Positions 22,710 through 39,771 of a stretch of 64,000 bases of DNA are shown here, one piece after another. The DNA is from a bacterium (GTDB lineage Bacteria; Electryoneota; RPQS01). Made by a program: the position numbers and the translations under genes. The notes below the pieces were generated by a model. The model saw only the letters and a program-made list of their open reading frames with translations. It was not told the DNA's origin and did no database searches. The stretch lies in NCBI GenBank assembly GCA_036504735.1, contig DASXUQ010000010.1, forward strand, positions 186,001 through 250,000. Direction: 5' to 3'. How positions within the stretch are numbered: position 1 is the stretch's first letter; every line of letters begins with the position of its first letter.

Positions 22710-22737
22710 AAAGTGGGTCAATTTTGCCCACTTTTTT
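22710..22737 (+). terminator. Rho-independent terminator after flgM
   Basis: AAAGTGGG (22710-22717) pairs with CCCACTTT (22727-22734) across a 9-base loop, and the T-run continues to 22737. It closes the flagellar block. Confidence 0.9.
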
Positions 22738-22812
22738 GTTGGCCTCCGCCCGACCCCGGCCTTTCTCCGCCTGTTTCCCACCCAAACGCATGACAACGCG
22801 TCAACTTCCTTA

Positions 22813-32335: not shown

Positions 32336-35300
32336 TTACTTTAGCAGCATCAGTTTTTGGGTTTCGACGTGGGTTCCAGCCTGGAAGCGGTAGAAATAGA
32401 CGCCGGAGGACGCGCTTTCACCCGACCAACTGTAGGTGTGGGAGCCAGCTTTCATTGGCTGATTGACCAGCGTGGCCACCTTCTGGCCCAACAGGTTGAA
32501 CACATCGAGCCGCACGGCGGCATCGGCGGTGAGTTCAAACTGGATGTTTACCGTATTGTTGAAGGGATTGGGATAAGCCTTGCAGAGTTTCTCCGACTGC
32601 ACCACGGGTTGGCTATCGAGGACTTCCTGATCGGACGGGCGGCCCATGCGATGATTCAGACGGTCATAGAAGTCAGACAAACGCCGGTGAGCGGATGCGG
32701 GTGTGCTTTGGACCTGCGGCCCGCCTGTAGAAAGCAGGGACACGATGTCAGACGCCACGGCGGCCCACAGGCTGTCCTCGCCTGCCGGTTCGGCCAGAAT
32801 CGTCTGCAACTCGGTCGTAGCCGCAACGTAGTTCTGCGCGGCAATGAGCGCCCAGACCGCTTCGCGCCGTCCGGCATACCTTACGGCCATCGGGCGGGTC
32901 GTATCGGCCCAAAGAGTGTACAGCGAATCAAAGAGCACTGTGCCCGAAGGGACGGTGTGCAGGCCCGTCCGCAAGGCTCCACGCGCGGCCCAAAGCGCGG
33001 CTTCATCGTCAGGATATTGATCCAGCATGGCGCGGTAGCCTTCGCTGGCCGTGCTGTAGCTGCTGTTCAGTTCGCTGGCGGCCGCATCGGAATAGGCGGC
33101 GAAGGCCGGGTCTTTCTCGGTAATGATCAGGGTTCCGCAGGTGGTACCGCTGGCGGAGGGTTGGCCAACAAACCCGGTCGTCGGGCAGAAGTGCTTGTTC
33201 GTGGAACTGGGTGCGGAATTGTCCGGCTCGAAGTAGTTTTCCTTGACATTGTGTTGCTTCACGATTCGGCAGCGCTGACTGACATCGTACATGTACGTGC
33301 CGTTGACGTCAAAATGGAAAGTATTGAAGCCGGAGTTCAGCAGCGGGTAGGACGTGGACAGGTAAACCAGCGGCGCAAAGCCTGCCGGTGGATCCTCGCA
33401 AATGCACGTGAATCCGCACGACCCGCACCAGAGGGCACTCTGGCCGGCTCCCACATAGTTGCCGGCGGAGGCCTGGCCGTACTGGTTCAGGACGATGTTG
33501 GCGGCGTTCTCGCACTTGATCTGATAGGGGAGATTCAGCGCAATGCGGTTGCAGGTCAGGCGGGCAGTGGTGGTATTGAAGTAGCAGCCCGCGATCGGCG
33601 ATGTTCCGGTGCCGTTGCTCACGATGGTATTGTGGTCAAACAGCGCCGCTTCGCCGGTGTTCGGATCGTCGCCCACCCAAAAGACACCGCCCCGGCCACA
33701 GTTGCGGATCGTGTTGTGGGTGATCGTGCCCTGACTGGTCGCGCCGCGAATGCCGTAATTCGTGCAGGCTTCGATCAGGTTGCTGTCCACCAGCATGTTG
33801 GCGCTGGAAATGTCCAGCCCCACGCCGCAATCATAAAGGTGGGAATTGTTGACGACGCAGCCCGGAGTCGGCTTATAGACGAAGATTCCGCCGCCGCGCA
33901 CGACACCATAGCTCATCATCAGGCTCGACTGATAGCCGTGAACGTTAATGGGACCCCACGTGCCGGTGCCGCTGGGCTCGAGCCGAACCGAGTCCGACGC
34001 CGTTCCGTTGACCACCAGTGTCCCCAGCACTTCGAGCGTCGCGCCCGGCCCGAAGGTCAGCCGGACTCCCGGTTGCAGCGTCAAGGTTTTTCCCGCCGGG
34101 ACAATCAAGCCGCCTTCGATGTAATAGGGGCTGTCACCTGAACCGGCGTAATTGGGGCTGTGCGGATCGTAAATATGGGGACGGATCGTCAAGTTAGTCG
34201 CCAGCGTCTTTACGCCGGGTGCGCGCAGCAAGGCTTTGAAGGCGTTGACACGACCGTAGCCGGAGACCGTATCCGGGCCGGGCTGAAGAATATCATCGGC
34301 GCTCTGCTCGAGAATACTCCTGATTTGTGACGCGGATAAGGTTGAATCATAGGACTTAAGCAGACCCGCAATACCTGCCACGGCAGGAGAGGACATAGAA
34401 GTGCCCTCCATATATTGGACCAGTTCTGCGGGGTACTCCGTGCACATCCATCTGCAACTATCTTCCGCATGCGGAGCACGATCCGATACAATGTCCATGC
34501 AAGCATCATTGGAGCAATCTCCCAAACCACCGCCGGGTGCGGCTACGGTAACGCTATGTCCAGCACGGGAATGAAAGCAGCCTGTATGCGTACACGACTC
34601 CCCTTCCAGTCGCTCATCGTTGGGATTTGTACCGGCGATAGCAAGCACATAGGATCGCCCAGCATCATCGGCAAGGTTGGCAGGATAGTCGCAGTCCGTA
34701 CCGCCAAGTTCGTTACCGCAAGCGAATGCCAAGAGCGCACCGTGCTGACCGGCGGCGTCTATGGCTACGTCAAGGGCCGGATTATCGTGCACAGGGACAC
34801 TATAGCTGATGTTGAGGATCTGAGCGTGCCGGGAAACGTCGGCGTGAGTAATACAGACGGCCATTGTCCAGGCATCCGGGTCGTTTTGATAGACCATCTT
34901 CACAATTAATCCGGTGCAGGCCGGGCAAACGCCGACAACCCCATAGCTATTCTCCTCAGCTAAAGCAATCCCGGCCACATGTGTGCCGTGACCTCTAACA
35001 TCGTCAAATGCCCGTTCCGGGAAAGGCGGATTACCATAACTGGGGTAACCTAAGGTATCGAGGATGATGCGTGTTGAGTCAGCAAGATCTGGATGCGTCA
35101 ATACGCTATCGTAGGTTGGCACCCCTGTGTCCAGAATTGCAAGTCTGGTTGACCGCGAGCCACGGCAAATAGCATGTGCTTCCTCGATCATCATATCCGC
35201 GCCAATCGTGCCTCCCCCTTGGCCAGTGTTCTTAAAACTCCATTGAAGACTCCAGCACGAATCTGCGGTTTGAGGGTGGAAGATAATATCCGGGCAACAG

Positions 35301-35644
35301 TGCAGGGTGTTGGAGTTGGTTTCGAAGTCAGCGCAAAGCGGAACGACTGCCAGCGACTCGGGGAACGCAAGGAGGTACATGCGTAAGGTCGGCAGTTGGC
35401 CTTCCACTGTTGCCGCATACTTGGAACAGAGTGAACTTAATGCGGCGAAGCTCGTGTCCGTCTTCACGACGAGCATCGCTTTGCCTTTCACCATCTCCAC
35501 ATCTTGGCCGTTCCACGTCTCTGTAGTTGTGTTCCATTGGCCGAAAGCTACGCTTGCCCATAGTAATATCATACCGGCCGCACATCTGCATATCCACCCA
35601 CACTTGAAGAAGCGTTGAGCACCCACATTGACCTCCAGTTTCAT
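32336..35644 (-). CDS. Secreted subtilase (S8) with beta-helix and type IX sorting tail
   Basis: 1,102 residues. A signal peptide ends near residue 36. The S8 peptidase domain (about 165-470) has D172 in AILDTGVP, H219 in GHGTHVAGI, the oxyanion Asn in CGNELGG and nucleophile S416 in GTSMSSPAVAG. Residues about 485-760 are right-handed beta-helix repeats (IEACTNYGI, ITHNTIRNCGRGG). A helical stretch follows, then the final 75 residues with YPNPFNNTVNIQFEL and SSGVYFYRFQAG, a type A sorting domain for the Por system. It should be exported and anchored at or shed from the outer membrane, acting on extracellular protein. The ATG overlaps the preceding gene's stop (ATGA). Confidence 0.92.
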   Translation of the reverse strand: MKLEVNVGAQRFFKCGWICRCAAGMILLWASVAFGQWNTTTETWNGQDVEMVKGKAMLVVKTDTSFAALSSLCSKYAATVEGQLPTLRMYLLAFPESLAVVPLCADFETNSNTLHCCPDIIFHPQTADSCWSLQWSFKNTGQGGGTIGADMMIEEAHAICRGSRSTRLAILDTGVPTYDSVLTHPDLADSTRIILDTLGYPSYGNPPFPERAFDDVRGHGTHVAGIALAEENSYGVVGVCPACTGLIVKMVYQNDPDAWTMAVCITHADVSRHAQILNISYSVPVHDNPALDVAIDAAGQHGALLAFACGNELGGTDCDYPANLADDAGRSYVLAIAGTNPNDERLEGESCTHTGCFHSRAGHSVTVAAPGGGLGDCSNDACMDIVSDRAPHAEDSCRWMCTEYPAELVQYMEGTSMSSPAVAGIAGLLKSYDSTLSASQIRSILEQSADDILQPGPDTVSGYGRVNAFKALLRAPGVKTLATNLTIRPHIYDPHSPNYAGSGDSPYYIEGGLIVPAGKTLTLQPGVRLTFGPGATLEVLGTLVVNGTASDSVRLEPSGTGTWGPINVHGYQSSLMMSYGVVRGGGIFVYKPTPGCVVNNSHLYDCGVGLDISSANMLVDSNLIEACTNYGIRGATSQGTITHNTIRNCGRGGVFWVGDDPNTGEAALFDHNTIVSNGTGTSPIAGCYFNTTTARLTCNRIALNLPYQIKCENAANIVLNQYGQASAGNYVGAGQSALWCGSCGFTCICEDPPAGFAPLVYLSTSYPLLNSGFNTFHFDVNGTYMYDVSQRCRIVKQHNVKENYFEPDNSAPSSTNKHFCPTTGFVGQPSASGTTCGTLIITEKDPAFAAYSDAAASELNSSYSTASEGYRAMLDQYPDDEAALWAARGALRTGLHTVPSGTVLFDSLYTLWADTTRPMAVRYAGRREAVWALIAAQNYVAATTELQTILAEPAGEDSLWAAVASDIVSLLSTGGPQVQSTPASAHRRLSDFYDRLNHRMGRPSDQEVLDSQPVVQSEKLCKAYPNPFNNTVNIQFELTADAAVRLDVFNLLGQKVATLVNQPMKAGSHTYSWSGESASSGVYFYRFQAGTHVETQKLMLLK

Positions 35645-36852
35645 TTGAGCAGAATTATTTTTGCAGGCGGGATGATTTCCCGGCTGCCATTTGTGATTGT
35701 AGCCTTAAGAAAATAGATGCCGGAAGACAGCCCCGGCGGGTTCAGCCACACCGAGCCGGGACGCTCCACCTCTTGCGTATAAACTTCCCGGCCCAAAAGA
35801 TCATAGATCTGTAGCATGGCAGGCCGATCATAGGTGACCACAAAGCCGCCATTGCTGGGGTTGGGATAGACCGTCAGGGCGGGCGTAGCCGGGAGTGGCC
35901 GGACAGGCGCGGTGGCATCGGGGACGCCCGACACATAGATTCCCGCCCCATTGATGGCCAGGCAATGGTCAGGTGCGGCAGACAGCAGGATGGCTGGAAC
36001 GGTGTTGGTGGTATCCGCCTGCCACTCGGTCAGGTCGTCGGACACCTTGAAATAGCCTTCGTCAGTGTAAACCAGCAGGCCGGTCTCCGTATACGCGATG
36101 GCAGCTCCGATCGTGATGTAATCCGGAAGCGGGAATACCAAGGTATCCCCCGTCACCTCATCATAGCGGCCGATGTGGTGATAGCCGAGGGCATAAACCC
36201 ACGGCTGCACAGGATGGTACGCCGTACCTTGAATCGCTTCCTCAACTGACAGCACAAGCCGGAACGTGCTGTCGGGAATGCTGACGCGCCACAACGTGTA
36301 GTCCGCCGTATAGTAGAAAACTTGCGGCGCGTTGCGCGCCCAGAAGAACGGATGAAAGTCCGTCGGCCCGCCGAACCACGTCCAATGCTGGCCGCTGTCG
36401 CGCGAAATATAGATGGAGCCGTTACCCTCTGGTTCGCTCAGGGTGACCCAAAGAGACGTATCGGCTGGGCAGATCATAAAATCGTTGGTCCCGCCCCCAA
36501 ACCACGTCCAGGTGGAGTCCTCAATTTGCATGTAGATTCCGTTATCGGTAGCGGCAAAGAGGTTGGACCGGCAGTAGGGGTAGGACACCAGCCGGAAAAT
36601 GCGGCGGCCGCGCAGCCCAAGATAGTGCCAGACCGTATCCGTTTCCGCACAGGCCCAGACCCCGCCCCCTTGCGGATCTCCCACATGCGCATACGCTCCG
36701 GCCAGCACCTGCGAGCGGTCCGCCGGGTCGATGATGGCACAGTACATCAAAGGTGACGGCTGCCCAAGGAACCGCCACGGGTCCTGACACGCGCAAGCCT
36801 CTCCCAAGAAGAGGCCCCAAGCCATCAAAGCAAGCCAAATCAGAGTCTTCAT
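35641..36852 (-). CDS. Secreted beta-propeller-like protein with type IX sorting tail
   Basis: 403 residues. Signal peptide (MKTLIWLALMAWGLFLGEA). The body has repeated blades with Asp-box-like segments (YISRDSGQHWTWFGG, TDNGIYMQIEDSTWTWFGG), as in sortilin/BNR propellers. The last 80 residues (LTVYPNPSNGGFVVTYDRP, GIYFLKA, KIILLK) are a type IX sorting domain. No catalytic motif is visible; it is probably a surface or adhesive protein. It is translationally coupled to the subtilase gene. A leader with a terminator-like hairpin lies upstream. Confidence 0.85.
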   Translation of the reverse strand: MKTLIWLALMAWGLFLGEACACQDPWRFLGQPSPLMYCAIIDPADRSQVLAGAYAHVGDPQGGGVWACAETDTVWHYLGLRGRRIFRLVSYPYCRSNLFAATDNGIYMQIEDSTWTWFGGGTNDFMICPADTSLWVTLSEPEGNGSIYISRDSGQHWTWFGGPTDFHPFFWARNAPQVFYYTADYTLWRVSIPDSTFRLVLSVEEAIQGTAYHPVQPWVYALGYHHIGRYDEVTGDTLVFPLPDYITIGAAIAYTETGLLVYTDEGYFKVSDDLTEWQADTTNTVPAILLSAAPDHCLAINGAGIYVSGVPDATAPVRPLPATPALTVYPNPSNGGFVVTYDRPAMLQIYDLLGREVYTQEVERPGSVWLNPPGLSSGIYFLKATITNGSREIIPPAKIILLK

Positions 36853-36872
36853 AGCTTCATATCTCCAAAGCC

Positions 36873-36975
36873 CAACAAAAAAGCGAACGGCCTTGATTTA
36901 CAAGGGGTTCGCTTTGAATAGTCGAATGCAGCCACACCGCCTCCCGTCCCTAAGGTGTATAGCCAAATGATGTTG
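36873..36975 (-). ncRNA. Candidate leader RNA or small RNA with intrinsic terminator
   Basis: A consensus promoter at 36981-37009 would start an RNA near 36974. It contains a hairpin (ACACC/GGTGT, 15-base G-rich loop AGGGACGGGAGG) and then a strong terminator about 60 bases later, still before the ATG at 36852. This layout is that of an attenuator or riboswitch, or of a free small RNA of about 100 bases. No known riboswitch class is recognised. Part of the loop (AGGG) can pair with CCCT of the terminator stem, a possible antiterminator. Confidence 0.45.
36877..36915 (-). terminator. Intrinsic terminator in the leader of the propeller/subtilase genes
   Basis: On the minus strand AAAGCGAAC (36915-36907) pairs with GTTCGCTTT (36888-36880). 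An inner CTTG/CAAG stem extends the hairpin, and a six-T run follows. It lies 25 bases before the coding start. Confidence 0.8.
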
Positions 36976-36980
36976 GTTCC

Positions 36981-37009
36981 AATATAATCTATCGGTGGCG
37001 GATTGTCAA
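36981..37009 (-). promoter_or_regulatory. Consensus promoter TTGACA-N17-TATATT
   Basis: TTGACA (37009-37004) and TATATT (36986-36981) on the minus strand with an ideal 17-base spacer. It reads toward the leader RNA and the two secreted-protein genes. The 378-base stretch between 36853 and 37230 holds only this promoter, the leader and the terminator at 37135. Confidence 0.8.
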
Positions 37010-37134: not shown

Positions 37135-37170
37135 AAAAACGGAACGGGCGGCCCTTGCGGGTCGCCCGTT
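37135..37170 (-). terminator. Terminator of the large secreted-protein gene
   Basis: AACGGGCG (37143-37150) pairs with CGCCCGTT (37163-37170), extended by CCC/GGG. On the minus strand the stem is followed by CCGTTTTT. Confidence 0.85.
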
Positions 37171-37230
37171 CTAATCCTACAGATTGAGATCCTTCTGCCC
37201 GAAGACGGGCGTCAGGATGACCCTAAAGGG

Positions 37231-39693
37231 TCACTTCATCAACAACATCTTGTGGGCAGCGCTGAAGCTGGCGGACTCGATGCGGTAGATATAGACGCCG
37301 CTCGAAAGCGAGCTGGCATCGAAGTGAGCGGTATAGGAACCCGGAGCCACCTGGCCGTCAACCAGCGTCGCCACTTCCTGGCCCATGACGTTGAAGACCT
37401 TCAGCGTCATACGTTCGGTGCGCGGCACGGAGTAACGGATTTCCGTGGTGGGGTTGAAGGGGTTCGGGAAGTTCTGCTCGAGCGTCCACTGCGCCGGGAT
37501 CACGTGAGTGTTGTCCGAGACGGCGTTGGTCGAGACGATGGTGGCGTGGATGTTGTAGAAGTAGTTGGCCGTCGCCGGGGCGCCGGTGCCATTCCACGTG
37601 TAGTTGTGAGCATCATCCCACGGCTGGGAATCATCACCCAGAATGGCCGGGAATGCCGTATCGGCCGTGCTGACGGTCTCAATCCAAACCCAGAACGGGC
37701 CGGTGAGGTTGTGCAGCGTGGCTTCACTGTGCGTGTCCACGGTCTTCCACTGATCCGGGCCGGTTTCGCTGGAGGCCACGGTGATCAACTGATTGTACAG
37801 GGACGTTCCGGGAACGCCGGCGTTGTCGGCATAGACATGATAGCGGATCGGCAGATCGCCGGGCTGGCCCATGTCATACTGCGCGAGCAGGCCGGTCACA
37901 TTGTAGGTTCCCACCACCACGGAGTCGGTCTGCGGGGTGAACTTCACCAGCGGGCCGGTGCCATTAGCGTAGTTGAATCTCCAGTGCACCGTGCGGTTGT
38001 CATAACCGATTTCCGGTTCGGCGGACGCCGGCTGCAAAACGACGTTATTGACGATAGAGGAGTCGTTGCTCAGATTCTCGTCCGTGCTGAGTTGTGACCA
38101 CGCCTTGATGGTGTAGGTGCCGGCCGTGTTCAGGGTCACGTTACCGATCTTGGTGACGGTAGCGCCCGGCTCCAGCGAGAACTGGGTGAACGGACGGTTG
38201 GTCTGGCCATTGGCAATCACGCGGAAAAACGCAGGAATGCTGTTTTCCGCCGTCTGGCCGACGTTCTGGAAGTAGGCCTTGACGCGGATCGGGCGGCTGA
38301 CCATGTTGGGGTACTTCACCTGGAAGGTGTAGCAGGTCACGTCATTGGGGAAGCCAGCCGTGTAGTCGAGGGTAAAACCGTCGAACTTGGGGCCGACATC
38401 CACGGTGTTGTGATTGCTATCCGACTGGAACGTGAAGCGGAACTTCAGCACGTTGCCGAGCAGCGCGGAGAAGTTCATGGGGTTCTGATAGGAGGAGTCG
38501 AACCCTGCCCACGTCGGCGGCAGATCCGTGTAGACGAAGTTCTGGGCCGGCGGCGGCTCGCAGGTCGGGTTGGAAACCGCGCACCAGCTACGGCCGGAGT
38601 CGATGGAGACTTCCATGCCCCAGTAGTCGCAACGAGCGGGGAAAGAGTCGCATTGAACCACACCCGTGCAGGCCACGTCGGCGATCAGGGTGCCGTTGGC
38701 GTGATTACGGGTATCCATAAGCGGCGACTCGAGCACCGTATGCATGTTGGCATTATACTGGCTGTTCGAAGCGTTATTGCACACGACAATGTGCGAGCCT
38801 GCCGGGGAGGAGGCATCGGTGGCAATGCGCCAGAGATTGCCGCCTGTGGGCAGGTTGGTGCTCGTCGTCCACTGGCCAACCGCATTGCAGTCGTCGGAGA
38901 ACACGGTGTCCGTGGCGCCGGTCTGATAGACGCGGATGTTGTCGACTTCCCAGCCGAACATGGAGGGGATATCAGGAGTCGAGGTGGCCGGATCCGAGGC
39001 AAAGGCAAAGCGCAGTTTCACATTCTGGCCAGCCCATGCGGAGAGGTTCACCGTCTCCTGATGCCACGTGGTGCTGGCACCACACCAACCGGGCACGTTG
39101 ATGCCTTCATGGTGCTGGAAGCCGAAGCTATAGAGGCTTGTGCGATCATAGGCCGGACTCAAAGCTGTTGAAGGAACAACAGTCCACGTGGCGCCACCGT
39201 TGGTGGAGATGCGGAGATTGCATCCGTCCCAACCGTTGTAACTGGGGGGATCAAATGGGCCTGTGGGCGTCTCCACACTGTAGCGGTGCCAGAAAACCAT
39301 GCCGGGAGTCGTCGCCGGAAGCTGAACCGGCGGGCTGTCGAGCACCCAGTATTCGGCATCATGATAGCCATTCAAACCATTGGTGGTGTCGCCGACCCAC
39401 CAGGAGGTCCCGGTGCCGCCGAAGGCATTGAAGTCATCAATGTGCCACGGGGATGGGGCTGCGGTCAGATCGATAGGCGTCCAGCCATCAAGGTCTCCGG
39501 TCTCCCAGTTCTCAAAGTAGATGTTCTCATCCAGAGCGCGGCCATGCGGGCGCACGGTCACGTTCGTCGCCCGTTGTACTTCCGGGCTTCTGTGCTGAAT
39601 ATCACCGATCAGTGTGTTCGTCATGCCGGCAAAAGCCGCCATCGTAAGGCACACGGTGCAGAGCAGCATCCAAACAGGCAAACGTCGAGTCAT
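37231..39693 (-). CDS. Large secreted protein with type IX sorting tail
   Basis: 820 residues from ATG 39693. The GTG at 39723 is rejected because it contains the GGAGG site. A signal peptide (LPVWMLLCTVCLTMAAFA) is followed by beta-sandwich modules. Two contain MAM/jelly-roll-like patterns ending in GWEVDNIRVYQTG and FDGFTLDYT, and a CARDB-like region has PIRVKAYFQNVGQTAENS. The end (FPNPFNPTTEIRYSV, SSGVYIYRIES, KMLLMK) is a type A sorting domain. No enzyme motif is visible. It is probably an abundant surface or released protein, perhaps carbohydrate- or protein-binding. It has its own promoter and terminator. Confidence 0.85.
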   Translation of the reverse strand: MTRRLPVWMLLCTVCLTMAAFAGMTNTLIGDIQHRSPEVQRATNVTVRPHGRALDENIYFENWETGDLDGWTPIDLTAAPSPWHIDDFNAFGGTGTSWWVGDTTNGLNGYHDAEYWVLDSPPVQLPATTPGMVFWHRYSVETPTGPFDPPSYNGWDGCNLRISTNGGATWTVVPSTALSPAYDRTSLYSFGFQHHEGINVPGWCGASTTWHQETVNLSAWAGQNVKLRFAFASDPATSTPDIPSMFGWEVDNIRVYQTGATDTVFSDDCNAVGQWTTSTNLPTGGNLWRIATDASSPAGSHIVVCNNASNSQYNANMHTVLESPLMDTRNHANGTLIADVACTGVVQCDSFPARCDYWGMEVSIDSGRSWCAVSNPTCEPPPAQNFVYTDLPPTWAGFDSSYQNPMNFSALLGNVLKFRFTFQSDSNHNTVDVGPKFDGFTLDYTAGFPNDVTCYTFQVKYPNMVSRPIRVKAYFQNVGQTAENSIPAFFRVIANGQTNRPFTQFSLEPGATVTKIGNVTLNTAGTYTIKAWSQLSTDENLSNDSSIVNNVVLQPASAEPEIGYDNRTVHWRFNYANGTGPLVKFTPQTDSVVVGTYNVTGLLAQYDMGQPGDLPIRYHVYADNAGVPGTSLYNQLITVASSETGPDQWKTVDTHSEATLHNLTGPFWVWIETVSTADTAFPAILGDDSQPWDDAHNYTWNGTGAPATANYFYNIHATIVSTNAVSDNTHVIPAQWTLEQNFPNPFNPTTEIRYSVPRTERMTLKVFNVMGQEVATLVDGQVAPGSYTAHFDASSLSSGVYIYRIESASFSAAHKMLLMK

Positions 39694-39771
39694 CAGTGTG
39701 TTCTTCCTCCGTCGGGTTATCACTCGATCCGCATCATGCGGACCTGTGGAGTAGCAAAGTGCATTTGAAAT

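Follow-up and report, generated by a model that had tools for sequence, protein, structure and literature searches.

Results

Genes and promoter at the locus

On the minus strand of the window (the whole 64 kb stretch of DNA analysed here), the gene of a 403-aa secreted protein is followed by that of a 1102-aa secreted S8 subtilase, and the two genes overlap by 4 nt as an operon (Table 1). A preliminary description of this DNA, made from its letters, had named them as a surface-protein and protease pair, and the matches to PF18962/TIGR04183 and PF00082 agree with it. Five full-length paralogues of the 403-aa protein are found in the same genome. A secreted-protein gene paired with a subtilase-like gene of 1,100 aa was noticed at three loci of this genome, the window locus among them, and in G010, a genome of the same family (L071, L072, L074); in one such pair, a second secreted-protein paralogue sits between the two genes.

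Ahead of the 403-aa gene, TTGACA-N17-TATATT (37009-36981, minus strand) was the top sigma-70-like match in a consensus scan of the 64 kb window and the sole one to reach 11/12, with 6/6 at the -35 element, a spacer of 17 and 5/6 at the -10 element. This sigma-70-type promoter would start the RNA at about 36974. Both the promoter and a leader of about 100 bases with a terminator ahead of the start codon had been proposed in the preliminary description, and both were recovered here, the leader measuring about 98 nt on the minus strand. The same-strand upstream neighbour (37231-39723) is also a secreted-protein gene; by inspection, its leader carries no terminator. At three of the four leaders described below the upstream neighbour is divergent, which, together with the upstream terminator at the window copy, indicates that the leaders have their own promoter.

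Table 1. Positions of the features at the window locus and of the three sister leaders (C10, C17 and C19 denote sequences of the same genome)
Feature	Position	Strand	Basis or remark
-35 element TTGACA	37004..37009	(-)	Consensus scan, 6/6; TTGAC[AT] in 4/4 paralogous leaders
-10 element TATATT	36981..36986	(-)	Consensus scan, 5/6; TAT[AG]TT in 4/4 paralogous leaders
First hairpin, GGCTATAC...GTGTGGCT, G-rich loop AGGGACGG, includes SD-like GGGAGG	36930..36964	(-)	Predicted in the window leader; not kept in paralogues
Candidate leader-peptide ORF, 28 codons from GTG	36849..36935	(-)	Open in 4/4 leaders
Full terminator, AAGCGAAC-18 nt-GTTCGCTTTTTT	36877..36914	(-)	Ends 24 nt ahead of the ATG at 36852
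Intrinsic terminator hairpin, AAGCGAAC-18 nt-GTTCGCTT	36881..36914	(-)	Arms invariant at 4 loci; apex diverged, still paired
Terminator arms, AAGCGAAC / GTTCGCTT	36914-36907 / 36888-36881	(-)	8 bp each, apex paired
T6 tract then GTTGG	36877..36882	(-)	CTTTTTTGTTGG also at ordinary 3'-end terminators of the genome
GGAG Shine-Dalgarno of main gene	36863..36866	(-)	Sequence; TTTGGAGA invariant in 4/4 leaders
403-aa secreted protein, signal peptide and T9SS type A sorting domain	35641..36852	(-)	Pfam PF18962 E 1.4e-8, TIGR04183
1102-aa secreted S8 subtilase, right-handed beta-helix region and T9SS sorting domain	32336..35644	(-)	Pfam PF00082 E 6e-38
3'-end terminator of upstream gene (37231-39723)	37135..37171 (about)	(-)	Separates upstream gene from TTGACA promoter
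Leader copy C17	C17:253168-253295	(-)	Ahead of paralogue, protein 55% identical to window gene
Leader copy C19	C19:316895-317021	(+)	Ahead of paralogue, protein 80% identical to window gene
Leader copy C10b	C10:255831-255956	(+)	Ahead of paralogue, protein 53% identical to window gene

Terminator and its tail

By our own criterion, the window holds seven strong terminator-like sites, and by inspection the one in the leader is the sole case lying in a 5' leader. The tail CTTTTTTGTTGG occurs at 10 sites in the genome vs 0 for the reversed control. Four of these belong to the leaders, and five of the six others resemble ordinary 3'-end terminators. Since the tail is common to ordinary 3' terminators, the leader hairpin looks like a typical terminator of this organism that has been set before a gene. 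As a separate observation, the presence of CTTTTTTGTTGG on the genome's intrinsic terminators (22710-22742 of the window, L049, L051 and L057) could be a lineage-specific terminator signature.

Sister leaders and scope of the search

A DNA search (BLAST) of the same genome returned three more copies of the leader (E 1e-13, 2e-12 and 8e-9), labelled C17, C19 and C10b alongside W for the window copy. The genome contains exactly four such leaders, each before a paralogue of the 403-aa gene. The exact hairpin pattern gave four matches there and none in the reversed control, and a covariance model, built from the same four leaders that it then scores, returned them with E values of 1e-27 to 1e-34. 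The recurrence of the layout before three paralogues, seen by BLAST, pattern and covariance model, makes the leader more than a chance arrangement. Visual inspection of the genes predicted near the three other copies revealed no transposase.

Across 11 genomes of the family, the covariance model gave nothing else convincing (next-best match E 0.09), and the exact hairpin pattern was absent from 80 other genomes (10 of the same family and 70 further) and from viral contigs. The leader is missing from two further paralogues that come second in a tandem arrangement (L013, L014), and likewise from the homologous genes (29-32% identity) of the family members G010 and G008. When the protein or its alignment was compared with the named genome collection, no close relative was returned, only one weak Gemmatimonadaceae match. 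As far as the collections searched show, the element appears to be an orphan of one species.

Conserved and diverged parts of the leaders

All four leaders keep the -35/-10 pair, the 17-base spacing, the distance of 156-158 nt from the -35 element to the ATG, the terminator arms, the T6-GTTGG tail and TTTGGAGA, and the RNA from promoter to terminator spans 97-99 nt at 4/4 loci. Identity across the four is 8/8 and 8/8 in the arms and 18-19/19 in the tail. The promoter spacer has diverged (4-8/17 identical), as have the terminator apex (7-10/18 between the three leader types W, C10b and C17/C19) and the leader body (22/66 to 40/68, or 33-59%, between types). All three apex versions still pair, outperforming 93-98% of the sequences made by shuffling their 18 bases (2-7% tail). 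Fourfold-degenerate coding sites, compared between W and C10b and between W and C17, are near random along most of the gene, where about one third of them are identical; sites so randomised in distant pairs argue that the kept terminator is not plain inherited identity. This evidence comes from four paralogues in one genome, not from independent species, and gene conversion is probable in the family.

C17 and C19 agree at 92-100% of leader positions from transcription start to terminator and at 91-97% from transcription start to ATG, the likeness extending through the signal-peptide codons. Identity between the two loci is about 40-58% further upstream and 47-70% across most of the remaining gene, and their proteins are 54-55% identical. 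Near-identity at the 5' end despite such different genes points to exchange of the 5' module, and this leader and signal-peptide unit was probably moved between paralogues by gene conversion. The C19 coding sequence is closest to W (80% in protein, mostly 70-97% in DNA). Near the 3' end, C19 and C10b run through 40 alignment columns without a difference, likely a gene-conversion tract. Module exchange lowers the independence of the copies; the argument from the three diverged types would still stand. The paralogous genes L009, L010, L011 and L012 (on C10, C19, C17 and C10) look mosaic: their 5' module and 3' sorting domain are conserved and their middle is variable.

First hairpin and open frame

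The first hairpin is absent from the C17 and C19 leaders and only loosely similar in C10b. The whole window leader folds slightly better than its shuffles (z about -1.4 to -1.7), and RNAalifold on the four leaders gave no structure common to them ahead of the terminator region. An antiterminator search, in which the RNA was folded up to the 3' arm, returned partial candidates that differ per leader, none of them conserved across the four, and no conserved sensor or aptamer was found among these leaders. At the gathering level, an Rfam scan of the window matched two tRNAs only and no leader family; at relaxed thresholds on the leader, the best local matches lay far below the cutoff, in keeping with the earlier statement that no known class fits.

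The candidate frame in W is preceded by an SD-like GGGAGG (36945-36940), runs through the terminator and ends in a TGA that overlaps the main ATG. The corresponding frame is open through the terminator in 4/4 leaders, with the same TGA overlap in all but C10b, where a TAG comes five bases earlier; its possible product would be MAAFDYSKRTPCKSRPFAFLLGFGDMKL in W and MAKIQQSKRTHSASGTFAFLLAFGDL in C10b. In these two leaders the G-rich element is GGGAGG-N4-GTG-GC[TC], which reads as a Shine-Dalgarno sequence with a start codon and is weaker in C17/C19, and in C17 a 1-nt insertion puts upstream ATG starts outside the frame that reaches the main gene. The three leader types yielded such a frame in 30, 18 and 28% of shuffles of their variable blocks. 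The product, about 0.015, is too favourable a figure, given that the leaders share ancestry and that this frame was picked out after the fact, and the frame could be due to chance. A leader peptide as an established fact was rejected: the terminator itself fixes the best conserved part (TTTTTTGTTGG, a tail common to the genome's terminators), and the FAFLL stretch of the frame is there because the terminator dictates it.

Discussion

In this study, we found a leader with its own promoter and an intrinsic terminator before the start codon, all in the same orientation as the genes that follow. The sequence suggests that the 5' leader of the secreted-protein/subtilase operon acts as a transcription attenuator, a reading to which we give a probability of roughly 0.6, and the brake is probably of an ordinary kind. 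At the terminator, most polymerases would stop with a transcript of about 98 nt, and those that read through would make the operon mRNA, with the ribosome-binding site just past the terminator. Comparison of the sequences shows the promoter, the fixed distances, the maintained terminator and the four paralogous copies. We infer termination in vivo and regulated readthrough. The preliminary description had offered a riboswitch or an attenuator; the attenuator layout stands, whereas a riboswitch with the G-rich-loop hairpin does not. It had taken a lack of conservation of the hairpins as telling against its reading, and such a lack was found for the first hairpin but not for the terminator.

The main rival to an attenuator is a fixed, unregulated brake that would cut expression by a constant amount, or a duplication leftover spread with the 5' module, in either case without signal-dependent control. 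Neither sensor nor antiterminator is conserved, the four copies are one paralogous family of one genome, and the C17/C19 near-identity into the signal-peptide codons and the likely C19-C10b conversion tract are what such a spread would leave. Against this, the arms are kept in W, C10b and C17/C19 while apex and flanks have diverged and the pairing of the apex has been restored, so that recent conversion alone is insufficient, and the fixed 156-158 nt distance suggests function. We regard this rival as possible, though on the unlikely side. A separate small RNA of about 98 nt, acting in trans from a gene that happens to abut the secreted-protein gene, is less likely and in our judgement improbable. 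Promoter and terminator do bracket an RNA of nearly constant length at every locus, but its body differs strongly among the three leader types, it is found only directly ahead of the 403-aa gene family, and the interval between terminator and ATG has no room for a further promoter. Lack of conservation in the RNA body, together with its constant spacing to the start codon, favours a cis-acting attenuator over a free small RNA. A new riboswitch class sensing through the G-rich-loop hairpin would suit the hairpin-terminator-gene layout and the empty Rfam searches, but it is very improbable, and a shared aptamer was rejected, given that this hairpin is missing in C17/C19 and only weakly similar in C10b, that no structure or antiterminator is shared across the four leaders, and that relatives with homologous genes lack the element.

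As the leader body is not conserved and yet in every copy a frame crosses the terminator to end at or beside the main start codon, we propose, tentatively, a ribosome as the input of the attenuator. A ribosome close behind the polymerase could keep the hairpin unfolded and then continue into the main gene, in the manner of E. coli pyrBI, where a ribosome-suppressed terminator is known (PMC5021804, PMC4824070). Translation-coupled readthrough of this kind seems a possible but rather unlikely input. Ribosomes of E. coli have usually not caught up within <100 nt unless there is a pause site (PMC4824070), and the length of the candidate frame, <100 nt, counts against it. The wider idea, in which a short frame crossing the terminator to the start codon of a type-IX-secreted protein would switch the whole paralogous family according to how tightly ribosomes trail the polymerase, and the leader and signal-peptide module would be swapped by gene conversion, is doubtful.

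If regulated, the leaders would mean RNA-level control of a secreted-protein and protease family in a poorly known lineage with type IX secretion sorting domains, and premature RNA ends at about 98 nt would be predicted at the four loci. Naville and Gautheret (2010) listed 15,930 5' terminator/attenuator candidates in 302 genomes (PMC2965389), and since uncharacterised 5' terminators are this common, the finding alone changes little. Like those candidates, the present leader has a premature intrinsic terminator in the 5' UTR; unlike them, it is known from a single genome and a single family of paralogues. Mobile attenuators, which are terminators carried by insertion sequences (PMC2965389), likewise place similar terminators at several positions of one genome, whereas the genes behind the present leaders are always homologous, never unrelated, and have the same promoter. 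The pyrBI leader (pyrL) differs in that its leader gene has 135 bp (PMC4824070) against about 28 codons of a candidate frame here, and in its UTP-sensitive pausing and pyrimidine link, whereas our leader precedes secreted-protein genes. Common to both is an intrinsic terminator inside an open leader frame just ahead of structural genes, such that translation across the terminator could suppress termination.
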